From a virus: a DNA stretch of 33,155 nucleotides. The position numbers were made by a program, and so were the translations under genes. Location of the stretch: the IMG/VR virus record IMGVR_UViG_3300017605_000811, positions 1-33,155 of that record; one strand, given 5' to 3'. This document shows positions 1-21,370 of this stretch, piece by piece. The notes beneath the pieces were generated by a model. It was not told the DNA's origin and made no database searches. It was given only the letters and a program-made list of their open reading frames with translations. Positions within the stretch are counted from its first letter, which is position 1. Every line of letters starts with the position of its first letter.

Positions 1-339
1 TCCCTTCACATGCCGCCCGAGATGGCCTTCATACCGAAGCCCGACACCCCCGCGATCAATGACCGAATGCGCCGCATTATCGCTTTCTCCGAATCCCCAA
101 AGGCTGAACCCCTTCGTGATATGGCTCACGACGTTCGCACCAGCCCCGTAGCGCGCCGATCCGTTCAGACCGTTCCAGCCGACCGTCCCATACGGTTCGA
201 GCGTTGCATCGGCCAGCCAGGCTCGGGAATCGGCCTTTGGGAGATGGTCTGGGGTTTCTTTGACGGTTTCGGCGCAAATTGCGGTCAGGCAGGAGGCGCC
301 GGCCAATAAGAGAACGAGCAGTTTACTTTTCATTTTCAT
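1..339 (-). CDS. Secreted protein, 3' end beyond window, possibly beta-barrel
   Basis: The first 113 codons are visible from an ATG at 339 (a second in-frame ATG is at 333); the gene continues past the window edge. The N-terminus, MKMKSKLLVLLLAGASCL, is followed by TAICAE: basic start, hydrophobic core and an A-x-A cleavage site, a clear Sec signal peptide. The mature part alternates aromatic and glycine-rich stretches (YGTVGWNGLNGSARYGAG, then GGVGLRYEGHLG). This resembles strands of an outer-membrane beta-barrel, but that is only a composition argument. It overlaps the upstream membrane-protein gene by 17 bases and no Shine-Dalgarno is visible. It is the last member of the signal-peptide cassette. 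I do not recognise the family. The function could be surface modification after infection or part of lysis; both are guesses. Confidence 0.7.
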   Translation of the reverse strand, partial: MKMKSKLLVLLLAGASCLTAICAETVKETPDHLPKADSRAWLADATLEPYGTVGWNGLNGSARYGAGANVVSHITKGFSLWGFGESDNAAHSVIDRGGVGLRYEGHLGRHVKG

Positions 340-649
340 TTTTGGGTGGCAGCGCAGACGGGTCATTGGTTGTTCTGGTCTGCGTGATTATGGTTGTGTC
401 GGTGATTTCGATCGGCGGAATGGGAGACTGTTTCAGATATGTAGCCGCGACCTTCACGGCCGAGAGGGCTGCAAAAATTATGATTCCTTTCAGCGTGTGG
501 TGCAGCCCGGGACCATAATTGAAAACGTCCGAATCGATTGCGGGCAAGGCTAGGCCGCTCTCGACAGCTCCCCAAAACGCTCCAAAGACGCCGGCGCATA
601 ATCCCAGGAACCATGCTTTTGGATCTTTGAAACGGGTTCCCATACTCAT
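323..649 (-). CDS. Two-helix membrane protein, holin-like
   Basis: A 108-residue protein starting MSMGTRFKDPKAW. A longer reading to 715 exists, but the ATG at 649 forms an ATGA overlap with the upstream stop, which decides the start. Two hydrophobic segments are visible, about residues 12-33 (WFLGLCAGVFGAFWGAVESG) and 52-70 (GIIIFAALSAVKVAATYL), followed by a polar Thr/Pro-rich tail ending PPKNENEK. Size, helix count and charged tail fit small phage holins, and it sits next to another small membrane protein after the fibre genes, a usual place for lysis genes. No endolysin is seen in the window, so the lysis role rests on position and topology only. Confidence 0.65.
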   Translation of the reverse strand: MSMGTRFKDPKAWFLGLCAGVFGAFWGAVESGLALPAIDSDVFNYGPGLHHTLKGIIIFAALSAVKVAATYLKQSPIPPIEITDTTIITQTRTTNDPSALPPKNENEK

Positions 650-885
650 TCGTTTGAATTTGACGGCGGAAGATTCGCGCCTGGAATCCGCAGCCTGCAT
701 CCGACGATGCTGCAATTGTTATTCTCCAAATGGCTCACACGCTCCCAAAGCAGTTGACGATCCTTCTCACAGCGTTCGAGCCCGCGATCGATTCGCTTAT
801 AAAGAAAGATGACCGTCGTCGCTAATGCTGTAGTAGCCCCTAAAAGCGCCCCTTCGAGTGTCATAATTTCTGAAAGCATCGTCAT
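646..885 (-). CDS. Single-TM small protein with coiled-coil segment (lysis accessory-like)
   Basis: A 79-residue protein with ATGA overlaps at both ends (885-882 with the beta-helix gene, 649-646 with the holin-like gene). One hydrophobic helix lies at about residues 10-29 (GALLGATTALATTVIFLYKR), then a charged helix with heptad-like spacing (RIDRGLERCEKDRQLLWERV) and a polar tail containing two cysteines. Membrane-anchored proteins of this shape, with a Lys/Arg-Glu coil after one helix, are common beside phage holins and may act as spanin-like or holin-modulating factors. I infer this from topology; there is no diagnostic motif. A weak GGTGG lies about 8 bases before the start. Confidence 0.65.
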   Translation of the reverse strand: MTMLSEIMTLEGALLGATTALATTVIFLYKRIDRGLERCEKDRQLLWERVSHLENNNCSIVGCRLRIPGANLPPSNSNE

Positions 886-2978
886 GGAGGTCCACCGATT
901 GAGGAAGTCCTGCCGAGATGGCCGGGGTTCTGGCTGCTGGCGCCGACGGGGCCTTGGCCGCCTCCGGTTACGGCGAGGGCGTCGTGGCGAACTGGAAACG
1001 GATAAACCGGAACCAGAAGCGTCGGCGGAGGATTTGTATCATACGTAATCCCGCGGACCAGATAATCAAAATCGTTAAGCGTAGCCGCCGTGGTGCATAT
1101 CGTCGCCCCTATCCCGCATTCGGCAATGTCGCAGTTCGGACAGCCGGTTCCGGTGCCGCCAATAATGACATTGGTGGAAACTCCGTTCACGATATTACGG
1201 AAGTGATAACTGTTGGTGTGGATCCCTGTCCCGCTATTCTGGAAGTATTCAACCTCGTCCTGATTTGCGATGCGCATTTGATCGCATCGATTGGCATCGC
1301 TCGCGCTCAGCCCGGTGACGACATTCGAATAAGATAGTGCCGTTCCGCCGCGATGATCTACCAGCCAGCTCCAGGACGCGCCTCCGCTAAAGGCCCACTG
1401 GTTGCTGGCCATGATGATTCCGATAATTCCTCGCGTGCCAGTCGTATTTCCATGAGCGTCGGCAATCGGAGACATGCTAAGAGAGGCTCCTCCGGACTTC
1501 ACGAAATCGCCGCGGCAATGGCGGATCATCCAGAGAGCGCCCTGCTGCGAGCTAATAACGACTCGATCGGAATTCCCTGTCTGAGAATCGTTGTAGAACG
1601 TGCAATCCTCGATTCCCAGGAAATTGGTCGAGGAGCTTACAAACGGATAGAAGCTCGTATAATGCTGACCGCTAGATCCGGTGGCCTGCGCCCTGAAGCA
1701 GTAATACCCATTTGTGAATCCGCATTTATAGACCGCTCCAAACGGGTCAGTGACGAAGATCATCCCGTTGTTAAAGACGCAATCATGCACGCGGAACCAA
1801 TCCGCTCCGAAATTGAACTGGAGGATCCTATTCTGGGCCGTATCCGGCGAAGGTGCCACGAATCGGATATTGGAAAATTCCGTCCAGCTTGCGCTTGATG
1901 TCGTCGGACTGGAGGAACCCGTGCTGCTCAGATTAATCGTCGTTTGGCTTGAGCCTTGGCCGTCGAAGGTCAGAAGGGACTTCGTAATGCTGAGCCCTGT
2001 CGCCCAAGTCGAGCTTCCTGCTGGAATATGAACCGTCTCGCCGCCCGAGGCCGCAGCATTATAGGCGGCCGTGACATCGGTCAGCGAAGTCGAGTCAGCC
2101 ATCCAAACACTCCCAGGGAACATTGGGAAGTTAGCCCCGGTGTCATCAATGACGAGATTGTCTATCCAATGAAAGGAATTGGCCGGGGCTACTTGGTGGT
2201 TATCATAACGGCCGATCGCAATGTCTCGACAGCTGCCGCCAGCCTCTCCATTGCCGAGCAAGCGCGTCTGGGTGGCTCCTACCTGCGTCCAGGTGACCGG
2301 ATCGAAAATCATTTGGGAGGCTAAGCCATTCGCACCATTGGCTTGATCCCATTTGCCGGTAATCCAATAGACCTTGTTTTTTTGCAGCGTATAAGCCGTG
2401 CTCGTGCCGCCCGGTTGCTGCGTTTCAAGGGCGGCCTCGATGGTGGTCGATGTCTGATTGTAGAATTGAAATCCAGCGAATTGTCCGCCGCCGTTCTGCT
2501 CCGCGAAAATGAGATCGTAAGATTGACTGTCCGCCGTCCAGTTGTTCAGCTTGACGTAATAGCCCCATGTAACCTTTGCATGCGCCCCGCCCTGAAGCCA
2601 ATACCGCATGAACTCATATTGACCGGCGGCATCGTTGAATTTTATCGAGCGAGTCGAGCCGTAATCCGAAATGAGACCGCCGCTGGAAAGATGAGTTCTC
2701 CACATCTGCATTCCGAGGGTTGCATCAACCGTCATGCTTCCCACCGTATTCCCGTGAAGCTCGAAACCCCCGCGAACAGCGGAGCCAGTCTCTAGGAAAT
2801 TGTTCCAGACGTTCGTCGCCGCGTCCGACGCGCTGACATTATCGCCAATGTTATTCGTCTCAAACCGTAGGAGTTGGGAAATCCGGACGTTCGTGTTCAG
2901 CGCATAGCTCGGGATGATGAATAGCCATCCAATCGCGAATAGCAGCCGCCGTCCTGCGTTCATTTTCAAGCGGATCAT
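882..2978 (-). CDS. Secreted LamG-like plus right-handed beta-helix protein (candidate depolymerase or tailspike)
   Basis: A 698-residue protein. In-frame ATGs at 2978 and 2963 both leave a convincing signal peptide (RRLLFAIGWLFIIPSYA, cleavage near residue 27). Residues about 75-285 look like a concanavalin/LamG jelly roll: VTWGYYVKLNNW, VYWITGKWD and WIDNLVIDD are typical strands. From about residue 298 (DVTAAYNAAASGGETVHIPA) to about 640 the pattern is that of a pectate-lyase-type right-handed beta-helix, with repeated short Asn/Ser/Gly turns and strands. In tailspikes this fold often cleaves or binds surface polysaccharide. Catalytic residues cannot be assigned by eye. The C-terminus is Gly/Pro-rich and probably disordered. 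It lies 18 bases after the FN3 gene and overlaps the next gene by ATGA. The signal peptide is unexpected for a virion tailspike. Confidence 0.8.
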   Translation of the reverse strand: MIRLKMNAGRRLLFAIGWLFIIPSYALNTNVRISQLLRFETNNIGDNVSASDAATNVWNNFLETGSAVRGGFELHGNTVGSMTVDATLGMQMWRTHLSSGGLISDYGSTRSIKFNDAAGQYEFMRYWLQGGAHAKVTWGYYVKLNNWTADSQSYDLIFAEQNGGGQFAGFQFYNQTSTTIEAALETQQPGGTSTAYTLQKNKVYWITGKWDQANGANGLASQMIFDPVTWTQVGATQTRLLGNGEAGGSCRDIAIGRYDNHQVAPANSFHWIDNLVIDDTGANFPMFPGSVWMADSTSLTDVTAAYNAAASGGETVHIPAGSSTWATGLSITKSLLTFDGQGSSQTTINLSSTGSSSPTTSSASWTEFSNIRFVAPSPDTAQNRILQFNFGADWFRVHDCVFNNGMIFVTDPFGAVYKCGFTNGYYCFRAQATGSSGQHYTSFYPFVSSSTNFLGIEDCTFYNDSQTGNSDRVVISSQQGALWMIRHCRGDFVKSGGASLSMSPIADAHGNTTGTRGIIGIIMASNQWAFSGGASWSWLVDHRGGTALSYSNVVTGLSASDANRCDQMRIANQDEVEYFQNSGTGIHTNSYHFRNIVNGVSTNVIIGGTGTGCPNCDIAECGIGATICTTAATLNDFDYLVRGITYDTNPPPTLLVPVYPFPVRHDALAVTGGGQGPVGASSQNPGHLGRTSSIGGPP

Positions 2979-2996
2979 GGCTTGGGTAAAATGGGT

Positions 2997-3410
2997 CTAA
3001 CGGATCTGGACAATTCCGGAGCTTCGGAAGAACTGCCTTTCCAAGCTGGTCGGCACTTCCATGGTTATGTTTGTTTGGCTTGTCCAAGGGCCTGATGGAC
3101 TCGGCGCGGAATCCAGCGAGAAGTTCAGCCGGATGACCGGAGCGCCAGGAACGGCTACGACAAAGTTCGTTGAAGGGTCAGAGCGGACGCCTTGAGCCGA
3201 GATGCTGACGGCGCTGATCGTGTAGGTGATACCGTTGACCAGATTGGAAAAGGTATAAGCGGTCGAGGCAGTCGTGGCCTTGACGGTATTATTGCTCCAG
3301 GAAAGCGAGAGTTCATAGGTCGCCGCCGAAAGGGCCGGATCCCATGCGACCGGAATCAGGGCCGCGCGGCAGGCTGAAGCGAACAGAAAGAAGGGAAGCA
3401 GGTATTTCAT
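2997..3410 (-). CDS. Secreted FN3-domain protein
   Basis: A 137-residue protein with a strong signal peptide (MKYLLPFFLFASACRAA) and one fibronectin type III domain at about residues 20-90. The FN3 hallmarks are VAWDP near the start, YELSLSW, then YTFSNLVNGITYTISAVS with the usual L-x-x-G-x-x-Y pattern. The last 40 residues (SGPWTSQTNITMEVPT, then QFFRSS) resemble the C-terminal strand often seen in secreted Verrucomicrobia proteins; that comparison is from memory. The start overlaps the upstream LamG gene by ATGA at 3410-3407. It probably mediates carbohydrate or protein binding next to the other adhesin-like products. A virion role is not shown. Confidence 0.8.
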   Translation of the reverse strand: MKYLLPFFLFASACRAALIPVAWDPALSAATYELSLSWSNNTVKATTASTAYTFSNLVNGITYTISAVSISAQGVRSDPSTNFVVAVPGAPVIRLNFSLDSAPSPSGPWTSQTNITMEVPTSLERQFFRSSGIVQIR

Positions 3411-4132
3411 AACGGCGAATCCCCAATATCTCCAATGGAAGAAACTCGGAACTTATCAAACTTCACTGTGGCCGCCCCGAATTGCATTTGCGGCACGAAA
3501 CGATCCACGGTTCCATCAGTGGTCCCGCCAGTCGTCTTAGCATGCTTATTAGAGCCATCGGCCGGCCTTGTGTCGGTCGTATTGAATTTAATCTCGGCCG
3601 TATCATCGTTTGCGCCTGCACCCTTCAAATAATGGAACCAGAAATGATAGGTCGTATCAGCAGACAGACCATCCACACAGCTCGCATTTACGCTACCGCT
3701 TTGGACGCGCAGGAAGTTAATCGTCGTATCGACTTGGATAATCGGATTATCACCGTTATCGCGAAGATCCAGAATAAGCGTGCCATTGGGAACGCTGCTG
3801 ACGAATCGGAACTGGAAATACCCCCAGACTTCGGATTTATTCCCTAGACCTCCCTTGTAAACAGCTGCATTGGCAGTCCCGAGGCTGAGGCTCTGAGATC
3901 CCACGAGTGGACAAGGCGAGGCTGTGCAATCCCAATCCGCGCTTCCTACTTGCAGTGTCCATCCGCTTGGCAGTCCGGTTCCCTCGCAGTCTTCGCTTAC
4001 GAGGTCGGCTGAAGCTCCTCCTCCGCCAGGACCACTGCCATTGTTCCCGCCAGTATAATTGCTATTGCCGATCGGAATCGCCTCCCGGCAAAGGCAGGTC
4101 AGCAGAATGAGAATGGCGAGTGCGGATCTCAT
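3407..4132 (-). CDS. Secreted LamG/concanavalin-like protein with Gly/Asn-rich linker
   Basis: A 241-residue protein. The ATG at 4132 is chosen over an upstream one at 4165 because it makes an ATGA overlap with the preceding stop and puts the hydrophobic segment (MRSALAILILLTCLCREA) at the N-terminus as a signal peptide. A linker NSNYTGGNNGSGPGGGG follows and is nearly repeated in the upstream neighbour. Residues about 50-235 look like a jelly-roll glycan-binding or LamG-like domain (GWTLQVGSADW, VWGYFQFRFVSS, TYHFWFHYLKG, VKFDKFRVSS). Four cysteines in the first half of the domain could form disulfides, which fits an exported protein. Likely role: surface glycan recognition. Confidence 0.75.
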   Translation of the reverse strand: MRSALAILILLTCLCREAIPIGNSNYTGGNNGSGPGGGGASADLVSEDCEGTGLPSGWTLQVGSADWDCTASPCPLVGSQSLSLGTANAAVYKGGLGNKSEVWGYFQFRFVSSVPNGTLILDLRDNGDNPIIQVDTTINFLRVQSGSVNASCVDGLSADTTYHFWFHYLKGAGANDDTAEIKFNTTDTRPADGSNKHAKTTGGTTDGTVDRFVPQMQFGAATVKFDKFRVSSIGDIGDSPL

Positions 4133-4962
4133 CTTGCCAAAAGGTAAGTCTCCACCTGTCCGCATTCAGTCGAGTTCAAGTTCCGGTTATAGACCACGAC
4201 TTCCGAAACATATTCCCCGGTCCCGAGATTGTTTCCGCCATCCCATGCCGCACCGACAGTCAGGCCGTCCAGGGTCTCGCTGCCGGAATCCGACGAGTTG
4301 ATGGCCACCACGCCGTTGGTTCTGATGGTGTCATTGCCAGCCGCCACGAAGATAGCTGTCTGGACGTTGTAACTCGGATTGGCTGCCGTTCCGGTCGTCA
4401 CGAACGCATTGCCCGAATAGATCGCAAAAGCATCTCCTCCGCTGATGTAGACCATTTGCCTTTGCGCCGAATTGGTCGAATCGCACACCGCATGGCTGGA
4501 TCCCGAGGAGCCATTACGCCAGAGGGCGAAGATCGTGCAGCCGCTCACAGCCGTGAATCCGATGGTGAGCCGTGTGGTGGCGCTGAATTGAAGGCCACCG
4601 ATGGTCCTGCCCGTCGTCGCGGCGTTGCGCCAGGTCGGATTACTTGCCGCCGGCGTCAGCGTGCGATTGTTGCCGCTGGAATCTCCCCAGCCCTTGATGG
4701 TGTCACTGTCCGCCGGCGGAGTCGTGCCCGCATTGTTCGTGACCAAGGCATCGGCTTTATACCAGGCGAACAGCCCCGAAAGGTCCGAAGGCGAGAATCC
4801 GCCACCGCCGCCGGCGCCGTTGTTTCCGCCTTTGTAGTTGCTGTTGACGCCGCCGTTGAACTGGCCGCCCCCCAGGCCGCCTGGCGGAGGCGCGAAGCAG
4901 TTAGCGGCCGCCAATGCAAGAATCGCCAGAACGGCGAGTGTTTTACTTGCTGCCCGGTTCAT
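4129..4962 (-). CDS. Secreted LamG-like adhesin with Gly/Asn-rich linker
   Basis: A 277-residue protein. The signal peptide MNRAASKTLAVLAILALAAA runs to CFA before a Pro/Gly-rich stretch; residue -1 before the cysteine is Asn, so a lipobox is unlikely. The linker NSNYKGGNNGAGGGGG is shared with the downstream LamG protein. SGLFAWYKADA opens a concanavalin-type domain (residues about 60-277) of the kind found in bacterial and phage LamG proteins; GYIF-type strands and EVVVYNRNLNSTE near the end fit that fold. The gene overlaps the 3' end of the 1300-residue fibre gene by 20 bases, and AAGG lies a few bases before the ATG. Likely a glycan-binding surface or fibre-tip protein. Confidence 0.75.
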   Translation of the reverse strand: MNRAASKTLAVLAILALAAANCFAPPPGGLGGGQFNGGVNSNYKGGNNGAGGGGGFSPSDLSGLFAWYKADALVTNNAGTTPPADSDTIKGWGDSSGNNRTLTPAASNPTWRNAATTGRTIGGLQFSATTRLTIGFTAVSGCTIFALWRNGSSGSSHAVCDSTNSAQRQMVYISGGDAFAIYSGNAFVTTGTAANPSYNVQTAIFVAAGNDTIRTNGVVAINSSDSGSETLDGLTVGAAWDGGNNLGTGEYVSEVVVYNRNLNSTECGQVETYLLAR

Positions 4963-7900
4963 ATCTAACCTTAAAAAGCGTATTGGAAAGCGAGTTGACC
5001 CTATTCGCGTTTGGCTGCCCCACGATCAGGCTTATTGGCGTGTTGGTGCCCGTGTCGGTGGTTATCACGACTGCCGTGTTGGTATAGCTGACCGTCGACG
5101 CTTGGCTTGGAACCGTGACCCACGGAACTGCGTAAACGCTCGTTGCGCTCAGCCGTGTAATGGAAACCCCGCCGCGATAGACGCATGCAAGATTCGAAAG
5201 AGTCACCGAGATGGCATTAGTGGTGGCCCCGCTGTATCCAATGTTGATCGTGTTGGTTCCGTTTTGGGTTCCGCCCGTCCACTCCGCAATTAACTGATCC
5301 CCATTGTTCGTGAGGGTGTTCCCTGGAACCGTAAAGCTCGCGAGATTCGTAAACTGCGCTGTGTTGAAGTTCGTGACGGTCGCCGTTGAAATGTAAAGCG
5401 TGCCTCCGAGCGTGGCGTTGCTGGAGCTTGCCCCGGCCCGCACAACTGCATTGCTCGCGACGAGATTGCTGATGCCTGCCGTGAAGGCCGAGAACGTGAC
5501 GATGGAGAGAGGATTGTAGGGATCGTCCGTGCTGACCCAGGCATGCACGTTCGTGGCCCGGTCAGCGAACATCTGAAGCGTATAGGAATAACCGTTCCGG
5601 ACTAGGATGTCGTAATTGCCATTGGTGGCCCAGTTCATCCATTTGATATTCACCCCTGAGACCGCACCAACCGCGACCGTGTTGCTGTATCCAGAACTCA
5701 CAGTGCCAAGTCCGATGAACGCCGAATAAAGGGAGGCGGATTTGACCACGTTGCTAATCGTGAAGGTCAGATTAGTTCCTACGAAGTTAGTCAGCGGCTT
5801 GAAAGTATTTAGGGACATGTCCCAATTCGCCGCGAGAGCCGTTGCTGTGACCCCGTTCGATCCGTTGAAATCTTGATTGATGTAGATCAGCTGATTCGTC
5901 AGAATCTGAACTCCAGTCGCCTCCACCGGCTGATTGGTCGAGCCGACGATCGTAACATCGACCTTGTTTCCGCTAGTATTGTTGGTCGCGAATACCGAGC
6001 CATTGACCGCCCAGAAAGTCAGATTGGTCTGATTTCCAACGGTCGTATTATTCGTTCCGAATTGGACGATCCCTGCCCCGGTCGAGACCCAGGCCACACC
6101 GTTGGAAGAACCGCTGGATGCCTGAAGATATTGGCCATCGCTTCCGGCGAGCTGCCGCTGAAGATGCGTCCCGGACCAGACGAATAGATCGCCCTTCGTT
6201 AATCCGGTGATATTGGCCAAGTCGGTAAGCGCGATCGAGTCCGGGCCGCTCTGCCATCCATAAACCGTTCCGTTCTCCCGGTGGAATGTCATGTAGGTGA
6301 CCGCGTTCGCGCCGGAGGCTACCAGCGGAGCAGAGGATTGATTCGTCGAGTTGATCCAAACGATTCCGGAAGGCCAAGCATTGGTCCATCCGCCCGTTCC
6401 GTTCTGGGTAATCTTGACGCGAAGCCAACGGTCGTCGGCGAGATTCGAGAAAGTGAAAACGGTATCGGCGGTCAGCGTTTTCTTTCGGAAATTTGCGAGC
6501 GACCAATCGATGTCGGTGCTGACAATGTTTGAGGCAGTCGTCGCGAATGGACCGGTGAAAGTTTGCTGGAGAGTAAAAACGTTGTTCTCATCCTCATAGG
6601 GGACAGCGGTTGGAAGATTGACGCGCGGAATGACTCCTGAAATCGCATTGGCAGACGTAAGATCAAGCGCGCCGAAGCCGACCGTCGTGCCATTCCGGCG
6701 AACTACCTGGCCATCAGCAGCAGCGATCATATCAGCCACGCTGCCGGCGCTATTTGCAGATCGCCCCACCACCGAGAGGCCCGAAGAATCCCGGAACTTC
6801 GAATTGCTGACCGCCCCAGCATTGATTAGCCATTGAGATCCGGCTCCTCCAACGGTAATGTCGGTCTTATTTCCATCCGTTAGCGTTCCCGGAGTCACCC
6901 AAGAGACATCCGCGCCGGCGCCCCCGGTTTGCAGGAATTGGCCAGCCGTGCCAGGTGCAAGATTCGTCCAGTTGTTGCCGTCGCGGAAAAGGATACCGCC
7001 ACGGGTTGCATAGATCCAATCAAGGAGAGTTGTAATGCCGGCTTCCTGTGGGTCTCCAGAACCGGCCGAGGTTCGCGCCAGGACTCGCTGAGTCGAGGAG
7101 ATGTCCTGCATCTTGGCATAAGTCACGGTGTTGTTCGGAATCGTCACCGCGCCCGAGCCTGCGCTTGCGGTGGCGTCTCCGGTCAACGCGCTTCGCTGAA
7201 TGGCCCCTGCTCCAGTGAATTCGATTCCGCCTCCGACCCCGATAACCTCGGGAACCCCGGTGCCGGCCGTATCGCGACCGATCAGGCTATCCGTCGCTAT
7301 ATTCGCCATCTTCGCAAGCGTCACGCCACCGTCCGTCAGCTTGCTTGTCCCGATATTGGTCGCCGAGAATTGAATCGTATTGGCATTGCTGGAAATCAGG
7401 ATGCTGGAATCCGAGTTTGAGAGGCTGTTGAATTGAAGATTCACGCCAGACTTCCCAGCGAATAAGGCCAACGCTCCGCCAAGATTCGCTCCAGAATTAA
7501 CCTCGCCATTTCCACTTGCTGCACTGTTGGTGAAGGCCTGCATGCCGGAGTTATAGGCCAGGACCTGGCCGTCGCTAATCCCGACGAATGTCTGAGCAAG
7601 GCGAAGCGGCGTATTAGTCGCATTGCCGGCTGCATTCAGGGCGAGGACCTGATTTGGGGTAAGGGCTGGGAAGCTAACTCCGGCGCTGAAATTGACGTTG
7701 CTGCTAAACCAGCTTTGAACGAAGTTAGTCCAGTTGTAAGGACTCAAGCCCCAGACATCCCTGGCCGATGCTGAATTGTTTCCGGATCTGAAGATGGTCA
7801 GCGTTTCCGCCGTTGAATTTCCGAAATCATTCAGTGCGAACGGCCGGATCGAAAAGCCGCTCTTGTAGGTTGATCCTCCATATCCTAGGAATTCGATATT

Positions 7901-8845
7901 TCCAAGCTGATCCCCGGAGACGATCTTAGTCGGAGCTGCTTCTATGTCGTCGTTTTTCTGGAAAACTACTTGCGGATACAAATTGGAATAGGCCGTTATG
8001 AAGGCGATCGGATGATTGTTTGTCCCGCGCACGTCAATTATCCTGCGGACATAGAGATCGGCGTTATTCGTCGATGCGCCATTGACCGTTGCGGAATTCG
8101 TTACGATTAACCTTCCGCCTATTCCCACTCCGGCCGTGCCGAGAATCGAGGCCGTCTTTCCTTGGGCCACGGTGTTCACGTTCGTATCGCCAAGAACGAG
8201 CGGATCCAATGTATTGGCGACATTGCTCAGAATATTGTAGCCGGCAATGTTGTTGAGCCTATTCTCGAAAAACTGCCATGCCGCGGCATCGTTGAAATTT
8301 ATTTTCCAGCTTCCTGCGTTTCCGTCATTGAGGCCAAACATGACCGTTTCATGCCGCAGATAGTCCTTTGTTGGATCGGTTACTCCTCCATAATAAAGAA
8401 TCCTCTGCCCTCCATCTGTCCTCAGAGTGAATATGTTTATGTCGTTGCTATCGACAAGAGTTGGGCGGACTCCATGATTCGTCCAACGCGGCTGGATATA
8501 GGCCCCCTCGTAATGGATGAGGGACTTGTTCGTCGTATGGCCAATCAGCGTCGGATTCCCGAGGGACGTGTTTGTTCCGGTTCCGCTCACAATCGCAATC
8601 GCATTCGTCGCGCTTCCGGCATTGGTGCTGATCGGCCAGTTCGGAAGCCCGCTAAGGAAGGTAACCAGATTCGTGGCCTCAATTGCCCGCCCGCCGTTCG
8701 GCGTCGAGTTAGTCACGATATAGAACAGCGAGTTGTTGGGCCCGGTTACCGTCTTGGTAAGCCGCGAAAGCTTGGTGCCGGCCACGCACAAGATCAGCAC
8801 TGCGGCCAGGAAAGAGCCGATTAGAATTGGCCGTTTCGTATTCAT
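4943..8845 (-). CDS. Giant fibre-like protein (1300 aa) with N-terminal export signal or anchor
   Basis: The largest gene in the window. Residues 8-23 (ILIGSFLAAVLILCVAG) form a hydrophobic segment after a basic start, either a signal peptide or a membrane anchor. The rest is Asn/Thr/Ser/Gly-rich beta structure. Residues about 505-600 hold motifs I know from prophage tail fibres: TLAKMANIATDSLIGRDTAG, then a GDATASAGSGAVTIPNNTV unit and TYAKMQDISSTQRVLARTSA, i.e. two copies of the V/T-x-AKM-x-x-I repeat. QFLQTGGAGADVSW and QYLQASSGSSNGVAWVS are further repeated fibre units. The start overlaps the preceding gene by ATGA. A fibre this long normally lacks a signal peptide. No tail-fibre chaperone is seen next to it. 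Confidence 0.8.
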   Translation of the reverse strand: MNTKRPILIGSFLAAVLILCVAGTKLSRLTKTVTGPNNSLFYIVTNSTPNGGRAIEATNLVTFLSGLPNWPISTNAGSATNAIAIVSGTGTNTSLGNPTLIGHTTNKSLIHYEGAYIQPRWTNHGVRPTLVDSNDINIFTLRTDGGQRILYYGGVTDPTKDYLRHETVMFGLNDGNAGSWKINFNDAAAWQFFENRLNNIAGYNILSNVANTLDPLVLGDTNVNTVAQGKTASILGTAGVGIGGRLIVTNSATVNGASTNNADLYVRRIIDVRGTNNHPIAFITAYSNLYPQVVFQKNDDIEAAPTKIVSGDQLGNIEFLGYGGSTYKSGFSIRPFALNDFGNSTAETLTIFRSGNNSASARDVWGLSPYNWTNFVQSWFSSNVNFSAGVSFPALTPNQVLALNAAGNATNTPLRLAQTFVGISDGQVLAYNSGMQAFTNSAASGNGEVNSGANLGGALALFAGKSGVNLQFNSLSNSDSSILISSNANTIQFSATNIGTSKLTDGGVTLAKMANIATDSLIGRDTAGTGVPEVIGVGGGIEFTGAGAIQRSALTGDATASAGSGAVTIPNNTVTYAKMQDISSTQRVLARTSAGSGDPQEAGITTLLDWIYATRGGILFRDGNNWTNLAPGTAGQFLQTGGAGADVSWVTPGTLTDGNKTDITVGGAGSQWLINAGAVSNSKFRDSSGLSVVGRSANSAGSVADMIAAADGQVVRRNGTTVGFGALDLTSANAISGVIPRVNLPTAVPYEDENNVFTLQQTFTGPFATTASNIVSTDIDWSLANFRKKTLTADTVFTFSNLADDRWLRVKITQNGTGGWTNAWPSGIVWINSTNQSSAPLVASGANAVTYMTFHRENGTVYGWQSGPDSIALTDLANITGLTKGDLFVWSGTHLQRQLAGSDGQYLQASSGSSNGVAWVSTGAGIVQFGTNNTTVGNQTNLTFWAVNGSVFATNNTSGNKVDVTIVGSTNQPVEATGVQILTNQLIYINQDFNGSNGVTATALAANWDMSLNTFKPLTNFVGTNLTFTISNVVKSASLYSAFIGLGTVSSGYSNTVAVGAVSGVNIKWMNWATNGNYDILVRNGYSYTLQMFADRATNVHAWVSTDDPYNPLSIVTFSAFTAGISNLVASNAVVRAGASSSNATLGGTLYISTATVTNFNTAQFTNLASFTVPGNTLTNNGDQLIAEWTGGTQNGTNTINIGYSGATTNAISVTLSNLACVYRGGVSITRLSATSVYAVPWVTVPSQASTVSYTNTAVVITTDTGTNTPISLIVGQPNANRVNSLSNTLFKVRYEPGSK

Positions 8846-9234
8846 TCGAGATCCAGAGAAGTCCCATCCTCAAGGTCAATGGATGAGGAGTTGCCGCTAA
8901 TGAGGAGGTCTGATGCGTTCAGGGTTCCATTCGTATCAGGAACCAGCATGCGCCATTCGGTGTTCGCGAACGGTCCGATCAGCGTGCAGAGATAAACGCC
9001 GTCAACGACATTGGTAGCCGTAAAGGTTCCGTTCGTGCTGCTATAGAAGCTGCGCCTGTCTCGGCTGATAATGCTGGACGGCGAGAAGGCTTTTGGAGCG
9101 TTCTTGTTGACGAGTTGGACTTCTCGATTCGTGATCGAGGTCGTCGTGAAGTCGGCCAGATTGAAAGTCACATTCGCGCCGAATGAGCCAAGAACGAGCG
9201 CGAGACAAAGAGAGATGGAAAGAGCGATCTTCAT
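8842..9234 (-). CDS. Small secreted beta-rich protein
   Basis: A 130-residue protein with a clear signal peptide (MKIALSISLCLALVLGSFGA) and a mature part of about 110 residues predicted as beta strands: TFTATNVVDGVYLCTLIG, then NTEWRMLVPDTNGTLNAS. The middle resembles small beta-sandwich domains at the N-terminus of some tail fibres, but I do not recognise a family. ATGA overlaps on both sides place it between the YadA-repeat protein and the giant fibre, so the three are probably made together. It could be an adaptor or chaperone for the fibre, by position only. Confidence 0.7.
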   Translation of the reverse strand: MKIALSISLCLALVLGSFGANVTFNLADFTTTSITNREVQLVNKNAPKAFSPSSIISRDRRSFYSSTNGTFTATNVVDGVYLCTLIGPFANTEWRMLVPDTNGTLNASDLLISGNSSSIDLEDGTSLDLE

Positions 9235-10796
9235 CGGTTTAACCCCATGAGTTTCCAGCGGGAATCCGCTGCATTATAAATGACCTGGATGATCGTCGGA
9301 GAATTGGTGAAAGAGATATCGGCGCCGGTCCCGGTGACGATGCGATTTGCCGCGGTTGGATCGACGCCGCTCTGGTTAGCGATGGTATTTGTGATCGCCC
9401 CGGAGATTTCAACGATATGCCAAGAACCGTCCTGCTCGGCAGCGAAACCGCAGACGACGCCAATAGTGGTAGCACCGGAAAGACGGATATAGACGTTAGT
9501 CCCGAGAACCACCGCTGCATTATTGCCGTTCGCTAAGCCGGCATTTGCGCGGCTTGTAAAGTCCAGCCTGCCGTTGAGGACGTTTGTTCCCCGGAAGGTT
9601 GTGTTTGTCTGGGTTCCACTGATTGCAAGGAGCCCCGGCACTACCACCGTGTGAGAACTTGTCCCAGCCATGACCTGGTTGGTCGTCGTCGTCGCAGCCT
9701 GAGAGCCTATGGCCACTGAGTTGGAGAAAGTCGCCGCCGCTGTGTTGCCGATCGCAATCGAGCTATGAGCCGTAGCTACTGCCGTTGCGCCGATCGCGAT
9801 GGCGGCATATCCGCTCGCCAAGCTATCCTGTGTTCCGATCGCGACGGATGAATCCGCGGAAGCAGTTGGAAGACCTATTGCGACGGCCCCGTTCCCAGAA
9901 GCGATTGCTCCTTGTCCGATTGCCGTTGCATTGTTGGTCGTTGCTCGTGCGCCATTGCCGACCGCCATCGAGGATTGATTAGTGGCAACGGCCGCGATCC
10001 CGATGGCCATTGCGAGAGTTCCTGTCGCTATGGAGTTGTTCCCGATGGCAATGGTCTGGATCGATAGAGCTTGCGCGTTCGAGCCTATCTGGAACGAATT
10101 TCCGCCAGCGCCTTCGGAACGGATCGCGTTGCCGTAATTGATCAGATTCGTCGAAGCGGGATTGATCAGAGTCGGAGAGGTATAGGTGCCACCGATCAGC
10201 CCAGTGTTGGTGCCGCGAAAAGACCAGAGAACCATGGGAGACGCGACCGTCTGCGTTGGGCTCGCCCCTTTCGTGATATAGTTCGAAAGCCCTACCGAAT
10301 TCGTCCGGACGCTATTCGTCGCATAATTCCCAATCGCGTCGACGAGACCGCTCGCAATGTTCGTTCCGTTGGTAGGCGTCTCGACGCTTATTGGAATGCG
10401 GACCAAGAAGGTCGGCGACTGGACAGTGTTGGTGATATAACTGATCTCCGCCCATCCGCCCGCCACCGTCACGGTCATGACTTCTCCGACTCGCCCGCGG
10501 ATTGTCACGTTAGTCGTGGCCGTCTGTGATTCGTAATGGCCAGCATTGAATGGATACTGCGTGAGATGATTAAGCAGGACGCTGGCTGAGCTGGCCGGAG
10601 AATTGGTTACCGGAATGAGCGTCGAGGGAGATCCACTCGCGCTATTGGTCCATGTCCGAGTTGACCCATTAACGGTCAAGGTCTGAGCATTCGTCGTCGG
10701 CGTGTTCGTGATCGAAATCGTTGCGGTGACCAACTCGACCGCGCTCGCCGAGAGGCAGCAAACCAATAGAAAAACGATGGCCAGGAGCCTATTCAT
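9231..10796 (-). CDS. Secreted YadA-head-repeat adhesin / trimeric fibre
   Basis: A 521-residue protein. Signal peptide MNRLLAIVFLLVCCLSASA has a textbook A-x-A site. Residues about 236-377 contain about ten 14-residue left-handed beta-roll repeats of the YadA head type, seen as AIGNNSIATGTLAM, AIGIAAVATNQSSM, AVGNGARATTNNAT, AIGQGAIASGNGAV and so on. These form trimeric heads in bacterial autotransporter adhesins and also occur in phage fibres. No YadA membrane anchor is present: the C-terminus (QVIYNAADSRWKLMGLNR) looks like the end domain of a phage fibre instead. So this is an exported trimeric fibre without its own outer-membrane anchor. ATGA overlaps link it to the tail-tip-like gene upstream and the 130-aa gene downstream. 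Confidence 0.85.
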   Translation of the reverse strand: MNRLLAIVFLLVCCLSASAVELVTATISITNTPTTNAQTLTVNGSTRTWTNSASGSPSTLIPVTNSPASSASVLLNHLTQYPFNAGHYESQTATTNVTIRGRVGEVMTVTVAGGWAEISYITNTVQSPTFLVRIPISVETPTNGTNIASGLVDAIGNYATNSVRTNSVGLSNYITKGASPTQTVASPMVLWSFRGTNTGLIGGTYTSPTLINPASTNLINYGNAIRSEGAGGNSFQIGSNAQALSIQTIAIGNNSIATGTLAMAIGIAAVATNQSSMAVGNGARATTNNATAIGQGAIASGNGAVAIGLPTASADSSVAIGTQDSLASGYAAIAIGATAVATAHSSIAIGNTAAATFSNSVAIGSQAATTTTNQVMAGTSSHTVVVPGLLAISGTQTNTTFRGTNVLNGRLDFTSRANAGLANGNNAAVVLGTNVYIRLSGATTIGVVCGFAAEQDGSWHIVEISGAITNTIANQSGVDPTAANRIVTGTGADISFTNSPTIIQVIYNAADSRWKLMGLNR

Positions 10797-11404
10797 GAAA
10801 TCGGATCGGCAACGAGGGCCGGTATGGAATCCTCCGTGAGATGGACAAGGCAGCGAACTCCTGCCGAGTTCTTGAAGATTATCCCTGCGCCCGCAGGCAT
10901 CTCATATGGGACGTAGGTTCTTGAAGCGGCCAGAGCGCCGAGAGCCGTATCGCCTGGCACAGGCTGAATCGCCGCCCCCGTAAAAATGCTCTTCAGAATC
11001 CGGCAGATGGATTGCGCCCGATAGTAATTCGAGCCGTCGAAGAGCCGCATTTCAAAGCTTTGCTGGGTCTGATCCGCGAGAAGATTTACGGCGGCCGTGT
11101 TGAGTGCGAGAGTGCCCGTCAGAAGCGTGTTGTTGTCGCTGATCGAAAAGCTGCCGGAGCTAGCCCGAAGCGTCGGCGTTCCAGAGGCATCCACGCTCCC
11201 GATCCCGATCGAGAGATCATAACCCGAAAGGGTGATCCGCTGATAGAACGGCGCGACCGTCTCAGAGACCCTCCGCAGCGCCCGGAATTCAATGGTAAGC
11301 GTGTCCTCGGTGAAGAAGTCCGGGAGCTGGAATGGCCGCGGATTCGACTCGTTCAGGACAAGTCGCTTGGACGTAATGTCCAGATAAAGCTGCAGGAGCG
11401 CCAT
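10793..11404 (-). CDS. Probable tail-tip or baseplate protein
   Basis: A 203-residue protein with no signal peptide, the last non-exported product before the secreted cassette. It opens MALLQLYLDITSKRLVLNES and continues with alternating strands (FYQRITLSGYDLSIGIGSVD), giving a beta-sandwich impression like baseplate upper-type N-terminal domains that dock fibres. That likeness is weak and from memory. It follows the 28-base gap that contains a TTGACTT motif 15 bases before the ATG, and overlaps the YadA-repeat gene by ATGA. The position at the boundary between tail and fibre genes suggests it is the attachment platform. Confidence 0.65.
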   Translation of the reverse strand: MALLQLYLDITSKRLVLNESNPRPFQLPDFFTEDTLTIEFRALRRVSETVAPFYQRITLSGYDLSIGIGSVDASGTPTLRASSGSFSISDNNTLLTGTLALNTAAVNLLADQTQQSFEMRLFDGSNYYRAQSICRILKSIFTGAAIQPVPGDTALGALAASRTYVPYEMPAGAGIIFKNSAGVRCLVHLTEDSIPALVADPIS

Positions 11405-16985: not shown

Positions 16986-17323
16986 CGGTTCACGTCCATC
17001 AAATGGATCTGGAGGATTGTCTCGTGGCCATTATCCACGGCTGCAATGCGGTAATCGATTCCGCCGTAAGTCACGCGCTGGCCATGCTTAGGCATGCTCT
17101 GCGGCTGGAAGGCCCAAGTCCCGCCGTCCCATTTGCCGGAGACGCGAACTCGGAGCGTAATCCGGATTTCGACCTCTCGGCCGCCGACGACCAGAGTTGT
17201 ATTCCTGGCGACCAGCGAAGGCGCGACTGGGTATTCATCGCCGTTCCAGACCATGGTCTTTTCGCCAAGGTCGGTCTCTGCCTCCAGGCAATCGTCGCTA
17301 ACCTCGTCAAGGAATTCGCTCAT
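16982..17323 (-). CDS. Head-tail adaptor (gpFII/stopper-like)
   Basis: A 113-residue beta-rich protein. The C-terminal half, VTYGGIDYRIAAVDNGHE followed by ILQIHLMDVNR, is the pattern of small head-tail joining proteins (an OB-like or gpFII-type fold ending in a strand with the L-x-L-x-D motif). ATGA overlaps with both neighbours. It lies after the glycosyltransferase fusion, so that enzyme gene interrupts the head-to-connector order. Confidence 0.6.
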   Translation of the reverse strand: MSEFLDEVSDDCLEAETDLGEKTMVWNGDEYPVAPSLVARNTTLVVGGREVEIRITLRVRVSGKWDGGTWAFQPQSMPKHGQRVTYGGIDYRIAAVDNGHETILQIHLMDVNR

Positions 17324-18636
17324 GCGGTCGCCGGGATCTCGGGAAAGGCCCTATCGGACTGTTCCGGTGATGCCGCCTCTCTCGGATGAGTGATTTCAGG
17401 AATCTGCGTATCCAACGGGAAAATGCATGGTCCGATGTGCTTCAGAATCACCTTCGTGTCGCCGAAAATCTCTCCGCCAAGGTCCATCCACCGCTGGCAG
17501 AAATACCAGTCTTCGGAGAGATACCGGCGATGGCCGCTCGGATAGGTATAAACGCCCATCGGCCAGAGATCGTGCTCCTTCTGGCGTTTGCCGTAGTCGG
17601 CATCGAACTCTAGGCCAGGGATCTCAGCAATCATGCGCTCGAACACATGCCTGCGGATCCGCATGAACCCGGTCCCGATATAAGCCACTTTCTGCAGGCC
17701 GTCATCGCGCTTCAAGGTCGGCTCGCCAAAGCCATTGATCACCCATTCCAGCGCCCCCTGCTGCTTCTTTGGATAGAACCCTCCGACTATATCCGCGTCA
17801 TGGGAAATCATGCGCTCCACGTGATCGGGCCCGAAGAGGAGATCGCAATCCATGAACAGAAGGTCAGTGCAATCCGATTTCAGGAATGCAGCGGTGAGTT
17901 GATTCCTGGAACGCGCAACTCCATCCCCCTGGCACATATGCATCTCTATCTCGCATGGCCGATTGGCCTGCAGCGCCAGCAAACACTGAACGAATTGGCA
18001 GGGCACCTGCGCATAAATCGGAAGCCCAACGAAGAGCTTCACCTTGCGCTTTTCCTGGTTGGCTTCGCGTTGAAACTTGAGCACTCCGTTATCTTTGCTT
18101 TCCATTTTTTCGGATATTAGTTTGAGGCCTTGTCGCTGGCAAATCTCTATTATCTTGGGCCGATCTTGTTCCATGTGGAACTCACAGACGATTGCCTTCG
18201 CCTTAGATAGGTTCATAGCGCCAAGGATTTCGACTTCGCAGCCTTCCGTATCGATCTTGATCAAGTCGGCCGCAGGAAGCTCCGAGGCGGCCAGGCAATC
18301 GGTCATCCTGTATTCGAAGAATTGATCGCCAAGCTGACGGAAGCCGCAACGGACTCGATTCTTGCAGGCCCCAATGGTTCCCCCGCCCGTGAAACTCCGA
18401 ATGGCCATCTGATGCAGTTCTACGTTCCCCAGAGCCCCGCAGTGCTGCCGGAATAGTTCGGCGCTCTCTCGCATGGGTTCATAGGCAATAATGCGCGCAT
18501 GGGGCCAGCGGTGAGCGCAGCGAAGCGTATAGGCGCCGATGCAGGCGCCGATGTCCAGGATCGTGGAAGGCGGAATGGCCATTTCGAGGTCATACTCCGA
18601 GACCTCGCCGACCATCCATTCAGGGATTCCGGCCAT
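17320..18636 (-). CDS. FkbM-type methyltransferase fused to a glycosyltransferase
   Basis: A 438-residue, two-domain enzyme. Residues about 20-180 are an FkbM-family SAM methyltransferase: ILDIGACIGAYTLRC (SAM-binding glycine motif), IIAYEPMRESAELFRQHC and ADLIKIDTEGCEVEILGAM. Residues about 198-420 look like a GT-A glycosyltransferase: FVGLPIYAQVP, SRNQLTAAFL, the DxD-type FMDCDLLFGP (D263, D265), ADIVGGFYPK and SEDWYFCQRW. The ATG at 18636 is chosen because the upstream alternative at 18690 would translate through an intrinsic terminator hairpin. It sits between cement and adaptor genes and overlaps the adaptor by ATGA, so it is expressed with virion proteins. Possible roles: glycosylation and methylation of capsid or fibre, or of host glycans. 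The substrate is unknown. Confidence 0.85.
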   Translation of the reverse strand: MAGIPEWMVGEVSEYDLEMAIPPSTILDIGACIGAYTLRCAHRWPHARIIAYEPMRESAELFRQHCGALGNVELHQMAIRSFTGGGTIGACKNRVRCGFRQLGDQFFEYRMTDCLAASELPAADLIKIDTEGCEVEILGAMNLSKAKAIVCEFHMEQDRPKIIEICQRQGLKLISEKMESKDNGVLKFQREANQEKRKVKLFVGLPIYAQVPCQFVQCLLALQANRPCEIEMHMCQGDGVARSRNQLTAAFLKSDCTDLLFMDCDLLFGPDHVERMISHDADIVGGFYPKKQQGALEWVINGFGEPTLKRDDGLQKVAYIGTGFMRIRRHVFERMIAEIPGLEFDADYGKRQKEHDLWPMGVYTYPSGHRRYLSEDWYFCQRWMDLGGEIFGDTKVILKHIGPCIFPLDTQIPEITHPREAASPEQSDRAFPEIPATA

Positions 18637-18675
18637 AAAACAAAACGGGCGGCCCTGCGTAGGAGACCGCCCGTT
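18637..18675 (-). terminator. Intrinsic terminator after the cement gene
   Basis: On the minus strand AACGGGCGG (18675-18667) pairs perfectly with CCGCCCGTT (18652-18644), nine base pairs, with AGG/CCT able to extend the stem inside the loop. The 3' arm runs straight into TTTTGTTTT, then the ATG of the glycosyltransferase fusion. This is a standard rho-independent terminator oriented with the operon. It sits right after the major capsid and cement genes, so it would lower expression of the enzyme and tail genes relative to capsid. Confidence 0.8.
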
Positions 18676-18696
18676 CCGTGAGCACTGCAAATCTGT

Positions 18697-19123: not shown

Positions 19124-20098
19124 TTAACTGACCACGGCTTCGGTATTCGTGATGCTGTTGGTGATGACGATCGGAATGCCGCACATGTCGCGCGGCGTCG
19201 GCGTGAAGGCCAGCGGCAGATTGCTTGTGATGGCCGTGCCGGCGCTTCGGGAGAATTGCAACTGATAGGCTGCCTGTTGATTCATGAACCAAGTCAGCCC
19301 GCCCGAGTTCTGAATCTGGATCGGGATGTATTGGAGCAATTTCGCACCCATGGCGTCCGTCAATCGCTTGTTGGTGGCATCCTCGCAATTCGCGATTCGG
19401 CCGATGGACTTCGTATGGTTCACGGCCAAGCCGATCCATGCCTGTAGATTGCTGACATAGGCAGTCAGCGGCTTGCTATTATTTCCGAGGACTTGTTGAG
19501 TCCGGAAATCGCCCATCTGGAATCCAGCATTGTTGCCCCAGACAAAATGACAGCCCTTAATGTTGTTCCAGACGAGATAAACCGAGGTCTGGACACTCGA
19601 AGTCGTTCCGCCGGCGCTGACTACCGGCGCACCGGTCGCGGTCACATTGAGTGCCGAGGTAAGCGAGCGGAGGCCGTTAAAGCCCTTTGCGTCGGCGCCA
19701 GTGCCGTAGTAGAACTGAGCGCCAACGGTAATCGTTGCCGCGGCCATGACAGCTTGAGCCTCATCCATCAGCAGATCCCCGACGCTGACATGGATTCCAG
19801 AGCGGGCTTCGGCATCCGCAACCGCCTTGTCCACCTGGATCTGGCCGTCGATGATGAAGCATTCCGCGAGCAGTTGGCTATAAACCGACTTGATCGTATC
19901 CGAGCCGTCATTCGCATTACGGAAGGCGACGGTCGGAAGCGTTCGGCTCGTGGCCCGATATAGCGTCCCGGAAATCGGCCGGCCCATCAGCGTCGTCAAT
20001 TCTGGCGCATAGGTCGTTGTTTCCTCCAGCAAGCCGATCGCGGGATCGCTGCCGGACCGCTTGGTAATGTCGAGGAGGGAAAGAAGGGCGTTTGCCAT
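19124..20098 (-). CDS. Major capsid protein (HK97 fold)
   Basis: A 324-residue protein after protease and scaffold genes. LLDITKRSGSDPAIGLLEET opens the N-terminal arm; the middle contains the E-loop-like and P-domain-like pattern (VDKAVADAEARSGIHVSVGD, LLMDEAQAVMAAATITVG); GNNAGFQMGDFRTQQVLG and GLAVNHTKSIGRIANCED are typical A-domain strands; IPIVITNSITNTE near the end matches capsid proteins of the Bbp17 type. The ATG is three bases after the scaffold stop. No cleavage site is obvious, but the S49 protease upstream suggests head maturation by proteolysis. Confidence 0.85.
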   Translation of the reverse strand: MANALLSLLDITKRSGSDPAIGLLEETTTYAPELTTLMGRPISGTLYRATSRTLPTVAFRNANDGSDTIKSVYSQLLAECFIIDGQIQVDKAVADAEARSGIHVSVGDLLMDEAQAVMAAATITVGAQFYYGTGADAKGFNGLRSLTSALNVTATGAPVVSAGGTTSSVQTSVYLVWNNIKGCHFVWGNNAGFQMGDFRTQQVLGNNSKPLTAYVSNLQAWIGLAVNHTKSIGRIANCEDATNKRLTDAMGAKLLQYIPIQIQNSGGLTWFMNQQAAYQLQFSRSAGTAITSNLPLAFTPTPRDMCGIPIVITNSITNTEAVVS

Positions 20099-20101
20099 AA
20101 G

Positions 20102-20512
20102 TTACGAGATTTTCACGGTGGCCAGGAAGCGGTCTCGGCCCTTGAGTTCGGGTTGCGGAGCGGGATTATTGGCCAGCGGAGGATGACCTTGAGCGGCGAC
20201 GATTTCAGCGGCCCGGGCAGCGGCTTTGGCCTCAACCTTCTTGTCGAAGTCGGCGATCTTGGCGATTGCTTCGTCGCGCTCCTTGGCCGCCGTCGCCATG
20301 GCCGCCTTCAGCGCGATATTGTCGGCCTTGGCCGCGGTCAGCTGGCAATCGAGTTCCGCGTTGGCGGCCGCCAGCTCCTCGGCATCCTTCACGGCCTCAG
20401 CGTTGGCCGGCGCAGCTTCCTTCAGCTTGGCCAACTCGGCGTTAGCCGCGGATAGGTCGGAGGTAAGTTTCTCAACTTGAGAATTCAGTTTGCCGAGGCT
20501 GAAGATCTTCAT
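20102..20512 (-). CDS. Capsid scaffold-like coiled-coil protein
   Basis: A 136-residue protein, mostly one long coiled coil (LNSQVEKLTSDLSAANAELA, then heptads to about residue 100) with a Pro-rich end (GHPPLANNPAPQ) and a basic C-terminal patch (LKGRDRFLATVKIS). Location between protease and capsid, Ala/Lys/Glu composition and a short basic C-terminus that could bind capsid protein all fit a scaffold. In lambda the scaffold Nu3 is made from inside gene C; here it is a separate gene. TTGACTT lies 19 bases before its ATG. Confidence 0.7.
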   Translation of the reverse strand: MKIFSLGKLNSQVEKLTSDLSAANAELAKLKEAAPANAEAVKDAEELAAANAELDCQLTAAKADNIALKAAMATAAKERDEAIAKIADFDKKVEAKAAARAAEIVAAQGHPPLANNPAPQPELKGRDRFLATVKIS

Positions 20513-20531
20513 GCTTCTAAGCCTCAGAGAG

Positions 20532-20538
20532 AAGTCAA
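20532..20538 (-). promoter_or_regulatory. TTGACTT intergenic motif, copy 3
   Basis: GGTTGACTTC on the minus strand, three bases after the protease TAG and 19 bases before the scaffold ATG. It is the same ten bases as before the tail-tube gene. The 30-base gap contains GAGGCT closer to the start but no good -10 element. Confidence 0.45.
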
Positions 20539-20542
20539 CCTG

Positions 20543-21370
20543 CTAGCCCATGATTATATCGAAGAGATCCATTAGGTCGGAAGGATTTCCATCGACCAGA
20601 CCATTATCTATCGCGTCCTGACCTCGAAAGCACTGGCCTTGCATTGCATCTGGAACAATGCTCTGACGCACCGAGGTGACAGCTTCGCGGAATTGCGCTC
20701 CTGTCGAATCCACCCAGGCCTGCAGCATGGCCTTCTCCTCGTCGGTCATAGAGCGATAAGGATCTCCCATGGTCTTATACTTCCCCGATGAAAAGGCATT
20801 GACGACGATCCCCTGATTGGCTAATGCTCGGCTCTCATCCACGGTATAGGCCTTCACCCCGATACTTCCAACAATTGCCGAAGGAGCCGCATAAACGCCG
20901 GCTTCGCATTGCGAAGCGAGCCAGTAGCCAGCTGAGCAGCACATCGAATCCGTCCAGGCATAACAGGGCTTGGATTGTGCCAGTTCTGCAATCTCGGAAG
21001 CGGCCTCCGGAAGACCTGTCACTGTCCCCCCTGGCGTTCTGAAATCGAAGACGACGCTTTGTATTGAATCGTCGCTTGCGGCGAGATCAACCGCTTCACA
21101 GAGCTGGTCCAGGTCGTATCCACCGCAGAGGGTTTCGATCATCGAGAGATGTTTCCCGATAATCCCATGAACCGGAATGATTGCGCAGCCTGGAGGCGTC
21201 ATCTCTCCAGGATCGGCCATCTCTTCCGGAGGCATCATCATATCGAAGGAATCCGCCTTAAGCGTGCCATCCAACTTCTTAGCCAACGTCTCCCGGATCG
21301 CCCGGTGCGCGTCCTCCGTTATGGCCCATGGCTCGGAATAAACCTTGGCGATAATGCGGGGAATGTTCAT
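20543..21370 (-). CDS. S49-family head maturation protease (lambda gpC / SppA-like)
   Basis: A 275-residue serine protease. GCAIIPVHGIIGKHLSMIET is the conserved entry strand; SVVFDFRTPGGTVTG is the substrate-groove motif; DSMCCSAGYWLASQC carries the probable nucleophile Ser146; and NAFSSGKYKTMGDPYR carries the general-base lysine (197 or 199, about 50 residues after the serine as in single-domain SppA). It probably cleaves scaffold and capsid N-termini inside the prohead. Overlaps the portal gene by ATGA. No scaffold domain is fused at the C-terminus. Confidence 0.9.
   Translation of the reverse strand: MNIPRIIAKVYSEPWAITEDAHRAIRETLAKKLDGTLKADSFDMMMPPEEMADPGEMTPPGCAIIPVHGIIGKHLSMIETLCGGYDLDQLCEAVDLAASDDSIQSVVFDFRTPGGTVTGLPEAASEIAELAQSKPCYAWTDSMCCSAGYWLASQCEAGVYAAPSAIVGSIGVKAYTVDESRALANQGIVVNAFSSGKYKTMGDPYRSMTDEEKAMLQAWVDSTGAQFREAVTSVRQSIVPDAMQGQCFRGQDAIDNGLVDGNPSDLMDLFDIIMG

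Follow-up and report, generated by a model that had tools for sequence, protein, structure and literature searches.

The window, a virus record of 33,155 bases from IMG/VR, ends its structural operon in a fibre-like cassette whose eight products all begin with a predicted Sec-type signal peptide. Export of the cassette products is well supported by these N-termini; the destination of the fibres has been inferred, and our preferred, though tentative, reading is that the cassette supplies the fibre or receptor-binding complement of the phage as Sec precursors, which would join virions outside the inner membrane. Relatives of the window phage infect Verrucomicrobiota.

Gene content of the window

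On the minus strand the terminase (25702) and the tape measure (14753-13587) bound a series of head, connector and tail genes; four more genes, the last ending at 10793, lead into the cassette (Table 1), where successive genes mostly overlap. The positions and starts given in the first-pass annotation of this DNA were as claimed. The cassette genes extend the structural operon with 4-base overlaps and are followed by holin-like genes, two small membrane genes (885 and about 640) lying between the gene at 2978 and that at 339. No clear Shine-Dalgarno sequence was seen just upstream of any of the eight cassette starts, from 10796 to 339, and translation of the cassette may be coupled through the gene overlaps. 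No integrase was recognised in the window, and neither the window nor its relative, contig G001, contains a recognisable signal-less fibre gene or other candidate receptor-binding protein. Among the head and connector genes, 17320-18690 codes for a protein in which a weak glycosyltransferase-like part comes after an FkbM-type methyltransferase domain (Pfam E 7e-8).

Table 1. Features of the cassette and its surroundings in the window
Position	Strand	Product	N-terminus	Signal score and remarks
10793..11404	-	203-aa signal-less protein		Closes the tail genes; overlaps the first fibre gene by 4 bases
9231..10796	-	521-aa fibre, YadA-head repeats	Signal MNRLLAIVFLLVCCLSASA	12.1; Pfam YadA_head E 6e-14
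8842..9234	-	130-aa protein	Signal MKIALSISLCLALVLGSFG (site uncertain)	11.1
4943..8845	-	1300-aa fibre-like protein	Hydrophobic N-terminus MNTKRPILIGSFLAAVLILCVAG	7.9
4129..4962	-	277-aa LamG-like protein	Signal MNRAASKTLAVLAILALAAANCFA	14.7; LamG-like as read in the first-pass annotation
3407..4132	-	241-aa LamG-like protein	Hydrophobic N-terminus MRSALAILILLTCLC	2.4, hydrophobicity 3.1; weakest of the set
2997..3410	-	137-aa FN3 protein	Signal MKYLLPFFLFASACRA (site by eye)	5.8
882..2978	-	698-aa beta-helix-like protein	Signal MIRLKMNAGRRLLFAIGWLFIIPSYA	4.8
646..885	-	79-aa small membrane protein		Fails signal rule
323..640	-	Holin-like membrane protein		Holin reading by eye
1..339	-	Gene start, interrupted by contig end	Signal MKMKSKLLVLLLAGASCLTAICA	15.1

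Domain families were matched for two of the window proteins, the 521-aa fibre (YadA_head) and the FN3 protein (Pfam fn3, E 9e-6; phrog_31, lambda J, E 4e-8), and most others had no family match: Pfam returned nothing for either LamG-like protein, and the 698-aa beta-helix-like protein matched no family. The 521-aa fibre shares a signal peptide and YadA-head repeats with the trimeric autotransporter adhesins (YadA), but it lies in a phage operon and lacks their C-terminal membrane anchor; Pfam finds YadA_head only, with no C-terminal anchor barrel, and NCBIfam matches cover the head region alone, far below cut-offs. For the 130-aa protein the AlphaFold model was poor (pLDDT 47). The model of the signal-less 203-aa protein encoded just before the cassette was likewise poor (pLDDT 48), its best PDB match, a tentative lead, being to T5/DT57C tail-tip chains; we regard this protein as a candidate virion anchor for the fibres. 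A proposed homology between it and the N-terminus of gp22 of the Verrucomicrobia phage P8625 failed (hhalign E 0.16).

The partial gene at 339 had been listed alongside the seven fibre-like products. Its signal scores highest in the cassette, and the product is probably an outer-membrane barrel rather than a fibre, as the positional counterpart in G001 (L006:3770-4261) gave a weak OMP_b-brl match (E 2e-4, below the Pfam cut-off). A parallel is offered by lambda Lom, which is encoded between J and the side fibre genes (PMC12309495) and, as in the cassette, is a signal-bearing surface protein among tail-fibre genes. Lom is an outer-membrane barrel and not a fibre, however, and is comparable only with the gene at 339, where the signal is present and the putative barrel comes from the weak match of the G001 counterpart, the window gene being partial. 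The cassette as a whole might encode adhesins or surface proteins of this kind, which would benefit the lysogen; adhesins contain YadA-head, LamG and FN3 domains, and a barrel-like gene closes the cassette. We consider such lysogenic conversion improbable, given that the genes extend the structural operon ahead of the holin-like genes, that searches of the cassette proteins revealed neither a membrane or YadA anchor nor a sorting signal, and that the window has no recognised integrase.

Signal-peptide scoring

Every window gene was scored with a home-made signal-peptide model of the n/h/c type, which combines n-region, hydrophobic core and cleavage-site matrix and was trained on 46 signal peptides (45 from E. 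coli and PelB of Erwinia). In leave-one-out trials the model, which is cruder than SignalP, placed the cleavage site correctly for 43 of 46. An N-terminus passed with a score of at least 2 and a hydrophobicity (best 11-residue Kyte-Doolittle mean) of at least 2.0. All eight cassette N-termini (10796, 9234, 8845, 4962, 4132, 3410, 2978 and the partial 339) passed, with scores of 2.4-15.1 and hydrophobicities of 2.1-3.4, as against one of the 34 remaining window genes, the holin-like gene at 640 (Fisher p = 7.6e-8), and 50 of 2400 internal random segments of the same proteins (2.1%). The first-pass annotation had described the eight products as starting with Sec-type N-termini and the upstream head and tail genes as devoid of them, and both descriptions are borne out, the first with three weak calls. 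It had further stated that most carry small-x-small cleavage sites; such sites are predicted in the set, together with the other features of Sec export and signal peptidase I cleavage (positive n-region, hydrophobic core), but are uncertain for the weakly called 4132, 3410 and 2978. The signal of the 241-aa protein hinges on the ATG at 4132, the score being -4.6 when the protein is started at 4165. By eye, none of the eight N-termini contains a canonical lipobox ([LVI][ASTVI][GAS]C). Export for the sake of disulphide folding is unsupported, the mature cassette proteins being poorer in cysteine (0.65%) than the products of the head and tail genes (1.36%).

In a 48-kb E. coli control, exported proteins mostly passed and cytoplasmic proteins failed, HtrE and FhuD narrowly missing on hydrophobicity. 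Lambda Lom passed, and the structural proteins of lambda, P2, Mu and BPP-1 failed, with the exception of Mu protein I, which was borderline (5.7/2.0); the general statement that phage fibres lack signal peptides is thus correct for the fibres of lambda, P2, Mu and BPP-1 examined here, although not for fibres at large. The model is unable to tell signals from membrane anchors, since some inner-membrane proteins, such as FhuB, also score high. The hydrophobic N-termini could accordingly be uncleaved anchors that tether the fibres to the inner membrane, and 8845, 4132 and 2978 have weak cleavage sites; we nevertheless hold this to be very improbable in view of the comparisons of cleavage sites given below.

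The cassette in relatives

Contig G001 encodes a terminase 75% identical to that of the window and is alike in architecture. The signals are retained across its readable cassette, the comparison with a homologous cassette that had been suggested as a check. Its homologue of the 203-aa protein (46-50% identical) is likewise signal-less, and the genes after it start MNFLRTILILIVVSVCLPGRA, MKPAPFNLHLATLALLLTAFATPAA and MNSRKITALLIIAFSLLLIAG, the last of these (at 16451) aligning with the N-terminus of the 1300-aa protein. There follow a frame reading PLLLIGCLIFASTNPSRA, the start of which is not fixed, a protein for which a TTG start was taken and in which pectate-lyase-type repeats were seen by eye, then an FN3-like protein that begins MRLAIIIVSGCMLKVAGWSQPMPRA and, past two small membrane proteins, a gene starting MKTLRTICLVLVTLAVIKVTTRA. 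The homologue of the 521-aa fibre (44% identical) has its own signal, and that of the 130-aa protein (58% identical) has a diverged one; between the window and G001 the signal sequences are unlike and their hydrophobicity is kept.

Tail, head and terminase proteins, used in single-protein and two-row scans of IMG/VR and GTDB, returned almost nothing besides L003 and G001, and alignment A7 found no IMG/VR relatives. A 16S signature and a profile of the terminase then gave access to Verrucomicrobiota genomes, the profile matching in 28 of 388. Signal-bearing fibre-region proteins were found in prophages of four Verrucomicrobiota lineages: in G334 and G223, directly behind a signal-less 273-aa gene in the former; in G138, directly behind a signal-less 412-aa gene; in G373, behind a signal-less 269-aa gene and with further tail genes next; and in G343, upstream of the tape measure. 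The G373 protein (L177:2116-3879) contains a phrog_2889 domain (E 1e-87) related to the antireceptors of Vibrio phage VHML and Pseudoalteromonas phage ACA1, both of which are signal-less; its neighbour is a phrog_6034 protein, other readable Verrucomicrobiota members of which (L207, L210) have no signal. The receptor-binding domain of this fibre is one varied by diversity-generating retroelements in other phages. The G334 fibre ends in a phrog_11393 tail-fibre C-terminus, and compared with its G223 counterpart is 53% identical in the signal and 89% in the mature part, the switch falling at the AxA site. After the fibre gene, L159:15814-17306 and the G223 region 19714-21206 (L158, L175) encode, in both prophages, two signal-bearing proteins (296 and 201 aa) not fibre-like in appearance. 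G223 has two more signal-bearing genes (200 and 440 aa) between its head gene and its tail genes (L158:5914-7878), and G334 has none at that place.

With a simple gene caller, and several regions being incomplete, signal-bearing fibre genes were unseen in G235, G135, G171, G076, G192, G132, G238, G089 and P8625. The last of these resembles the window in terminase (23% identity) and gene order and, as in the window, its tail genes are followed by YadA-head-like and LamG proteins (gp22-gp24), but these are without signal peptides, and the gp22 N-terminus is not detectably related to the 203-aa protein.

Signal-bearing fibres beyond Verrucomicrobiota

Clear signals were seen on two proteins reached through the C-terminal domain of the G334 fibre: gp19 of Burkholderia phage BcepC6B, named 'tail fiber protein', and orf035 of Xanthomonas phage PBR31, named 'putative structural protein'. 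A scan of IMG/VR with these two proteins gave at least 435 relatives. Among the best 80, 77 ORFs were readable and 32 were signal-bearing, a further five being so with an alternative start; the other 40 failed the rule, of which at least one (L213) has a clear signal barely below the cut-off. One tail-fibre C-terminal domain may thus stand behind a signal or behind another N-terminus, since 32-37 of the 77 pass and most others do not, a proportion that is not an unbiased frequency because one scan pattern, MKKLIA, is part of a signal and reading was restricted to the best 80. In L282 such a gene has the major head protein on one side and virion structural genes on the other. The match of PHROG 33320, annotated as a tail fiber protein, to L266 begins at residue 4, within the L266 signal. 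The fibre genes that bear a signal vary among the related phages L240:4755-8161, L266:4260-8476 and L261:4158-7849: both do so in L240, and the first alone in L261.

Within these relatives the signal behaves as an optional prefix. In family A (SP|ATLNPVQLLNPAGSTSGQ) the predicted cleavage site falls exactly four residues before the motif in all 14 signal-bearing members, and the two signal-less homologues start MTTKSPIKLIDPTGSTSGQ and MTTLVPAALVSPAGSTSGQ, with in-frame stops four to five codons upstream. One homologue in family C (SP|QTFPVNNLQVNG) starts MSTFPVNNLTVSG. In BLAST alignments residue 2-3 of the signal-less proteins pairs with residue 19-23 of the signal-bearing ones. In both families, therefore, signal-less proteins begin no more than about one residue from where cleavage is predicted in their signal-bearing homologues, from which we conclude that the signal is an optional prefix, the predicted removal of which leaves an ordinary fibre protein such as other phages make without one. 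The coincidence of these starts with the cleavage sites, the fixed distance from motif to site in family A and the sharp change of identity at the AxA site between G334 and G223 all argue against uncleaved anchors. Families A and C show no recognisable homology to the window proteins, so for the window the junction evidence is an analogy. A presumed 'canonical fibre N-terminus' behind the signal was not confirmed by tblastn, which gave insignificant matches for the gene at 8845, the best lying away from an N-terminus, and zero matches for the G373 fibre.

An ordinary signal-less fibre or tailspike is also encoded by BcepC6B (gp18), PBR31 (tailspike), L211, L216, G394 and G396, and in several of these the signal-bearing gene adjoins lysis genes. 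In these phages the exported protein need therefore not be the virion fibre. A serious rival on this account, in our judgement less likely than virion fibres, is that the exported fibre-like proteins are secreted receptor binders apart from the virion, which would either cover the receptors of the infected cell or of its debris, and so block superinfection or keep progeny off cell remains, or degrade surface glycans; the exported 296-aa and 201-aa proteins of G334, which do not resemble fibres, agree with such a role. The case for secreted binders is stronger for phages with an ordinary fibre or tailspike than for the window phage, as the window and G001 show no alternative candidate receptor-binding protein. 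Blocking might also predict that a phage carries the same receptor-binding domain on two fibres, one with a signal and the other lacking it, and no such case was found, few loci being sufficiently long.

Discussion

Of the two readings that had been put forward, fibres joining virions outside the inner membrane and surface adhesins or depolymerases, the evidence tentatively favours ordinary fibre proteins with a removable export signal. Virion fibres are favoured for the window phage because no signal-less fibre gene was recognised and the virion needs a receptor-binding protein. The signals are confined, but for the holin-like gene, to the cassette and recur in G001; elsewhere they stand on proteins with known receptor-binding or tail-fibre domains (phrog_2889, phrog_11393), diverge faster than the mature part (G334/G223) and belong to genes in structural or lysis modules. 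Set against this are P8625, a Verrucomicrobia phage of similar gene order, and the related prophages G235, G135, G171, G076, G192 and G132, all without signals; moreover, signal-less homologues of the window proteins themselves are not in hand, the junctions coming from other fibre families. Our working model for virion fibres is that signal peptidase I would cleave the fibre signals, and that the mature fibres would collect, folded, in the periplasm during the cytoplasmic assembly of heads and tails. Fibres and particles would then meet once the holin opens the inner membrane at lysis, the 203-aa protein being a candidate attachment point on the virion.

The first-pass annotation knew of no described system of this kind. 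A limited search of the open-access literature likewise found no description of exported tail fibres, the matches including several on SAR endolysins or eCIS cargo signals, and the PBR31 paper mentions a signal peptide on an esterase only (PMC10975493). The window is not unique, however: the prophages described above, BcepC6B gp19, PBR31 orf035 and PHROG 33320 likewise combine a fibre-type protein with an N-terminal signal peptide, and such proteins are thus already in databases, their export unremarked as far as we found. Both gp19 and orf035 are encoded beside tail fibre or tailspike and lysis genes. They differ from the window in that each phage has one such protein together with an ordinary fibre or tailspike, where the window has a whole cassette, and we detected no relationship in sequence between them and the window proteins.

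Tail fibres are regarded as cytoplasmic proteins, and phage engineering, the prediction of receptor-binding proteins and recombinant expression presume an intact N-terminus. The sequences suggest that some phages send fibres through the host protein-export channel before use. It is conceivable, with somewhat greater reserve than for the window phage itself, that a recurring class of tailed phages finishes its virions outside the cytoplasm, Sec-exported and periplasm-processed fibres being added only when the inner membrane opens; the search gave no account of such a maturation route in tailed phages. If such a class of fibres is exported and trimmed, virion assembly would include a periplasmic step, the predicted N-termini of those proteins would be wrong, and the sequence of fibre addition relative to lysis would be open to testing. 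If they are instead secreted blockers, they would represent a recurring superinfection or debris-decoy device that has, as far as we found, gone unremarked.
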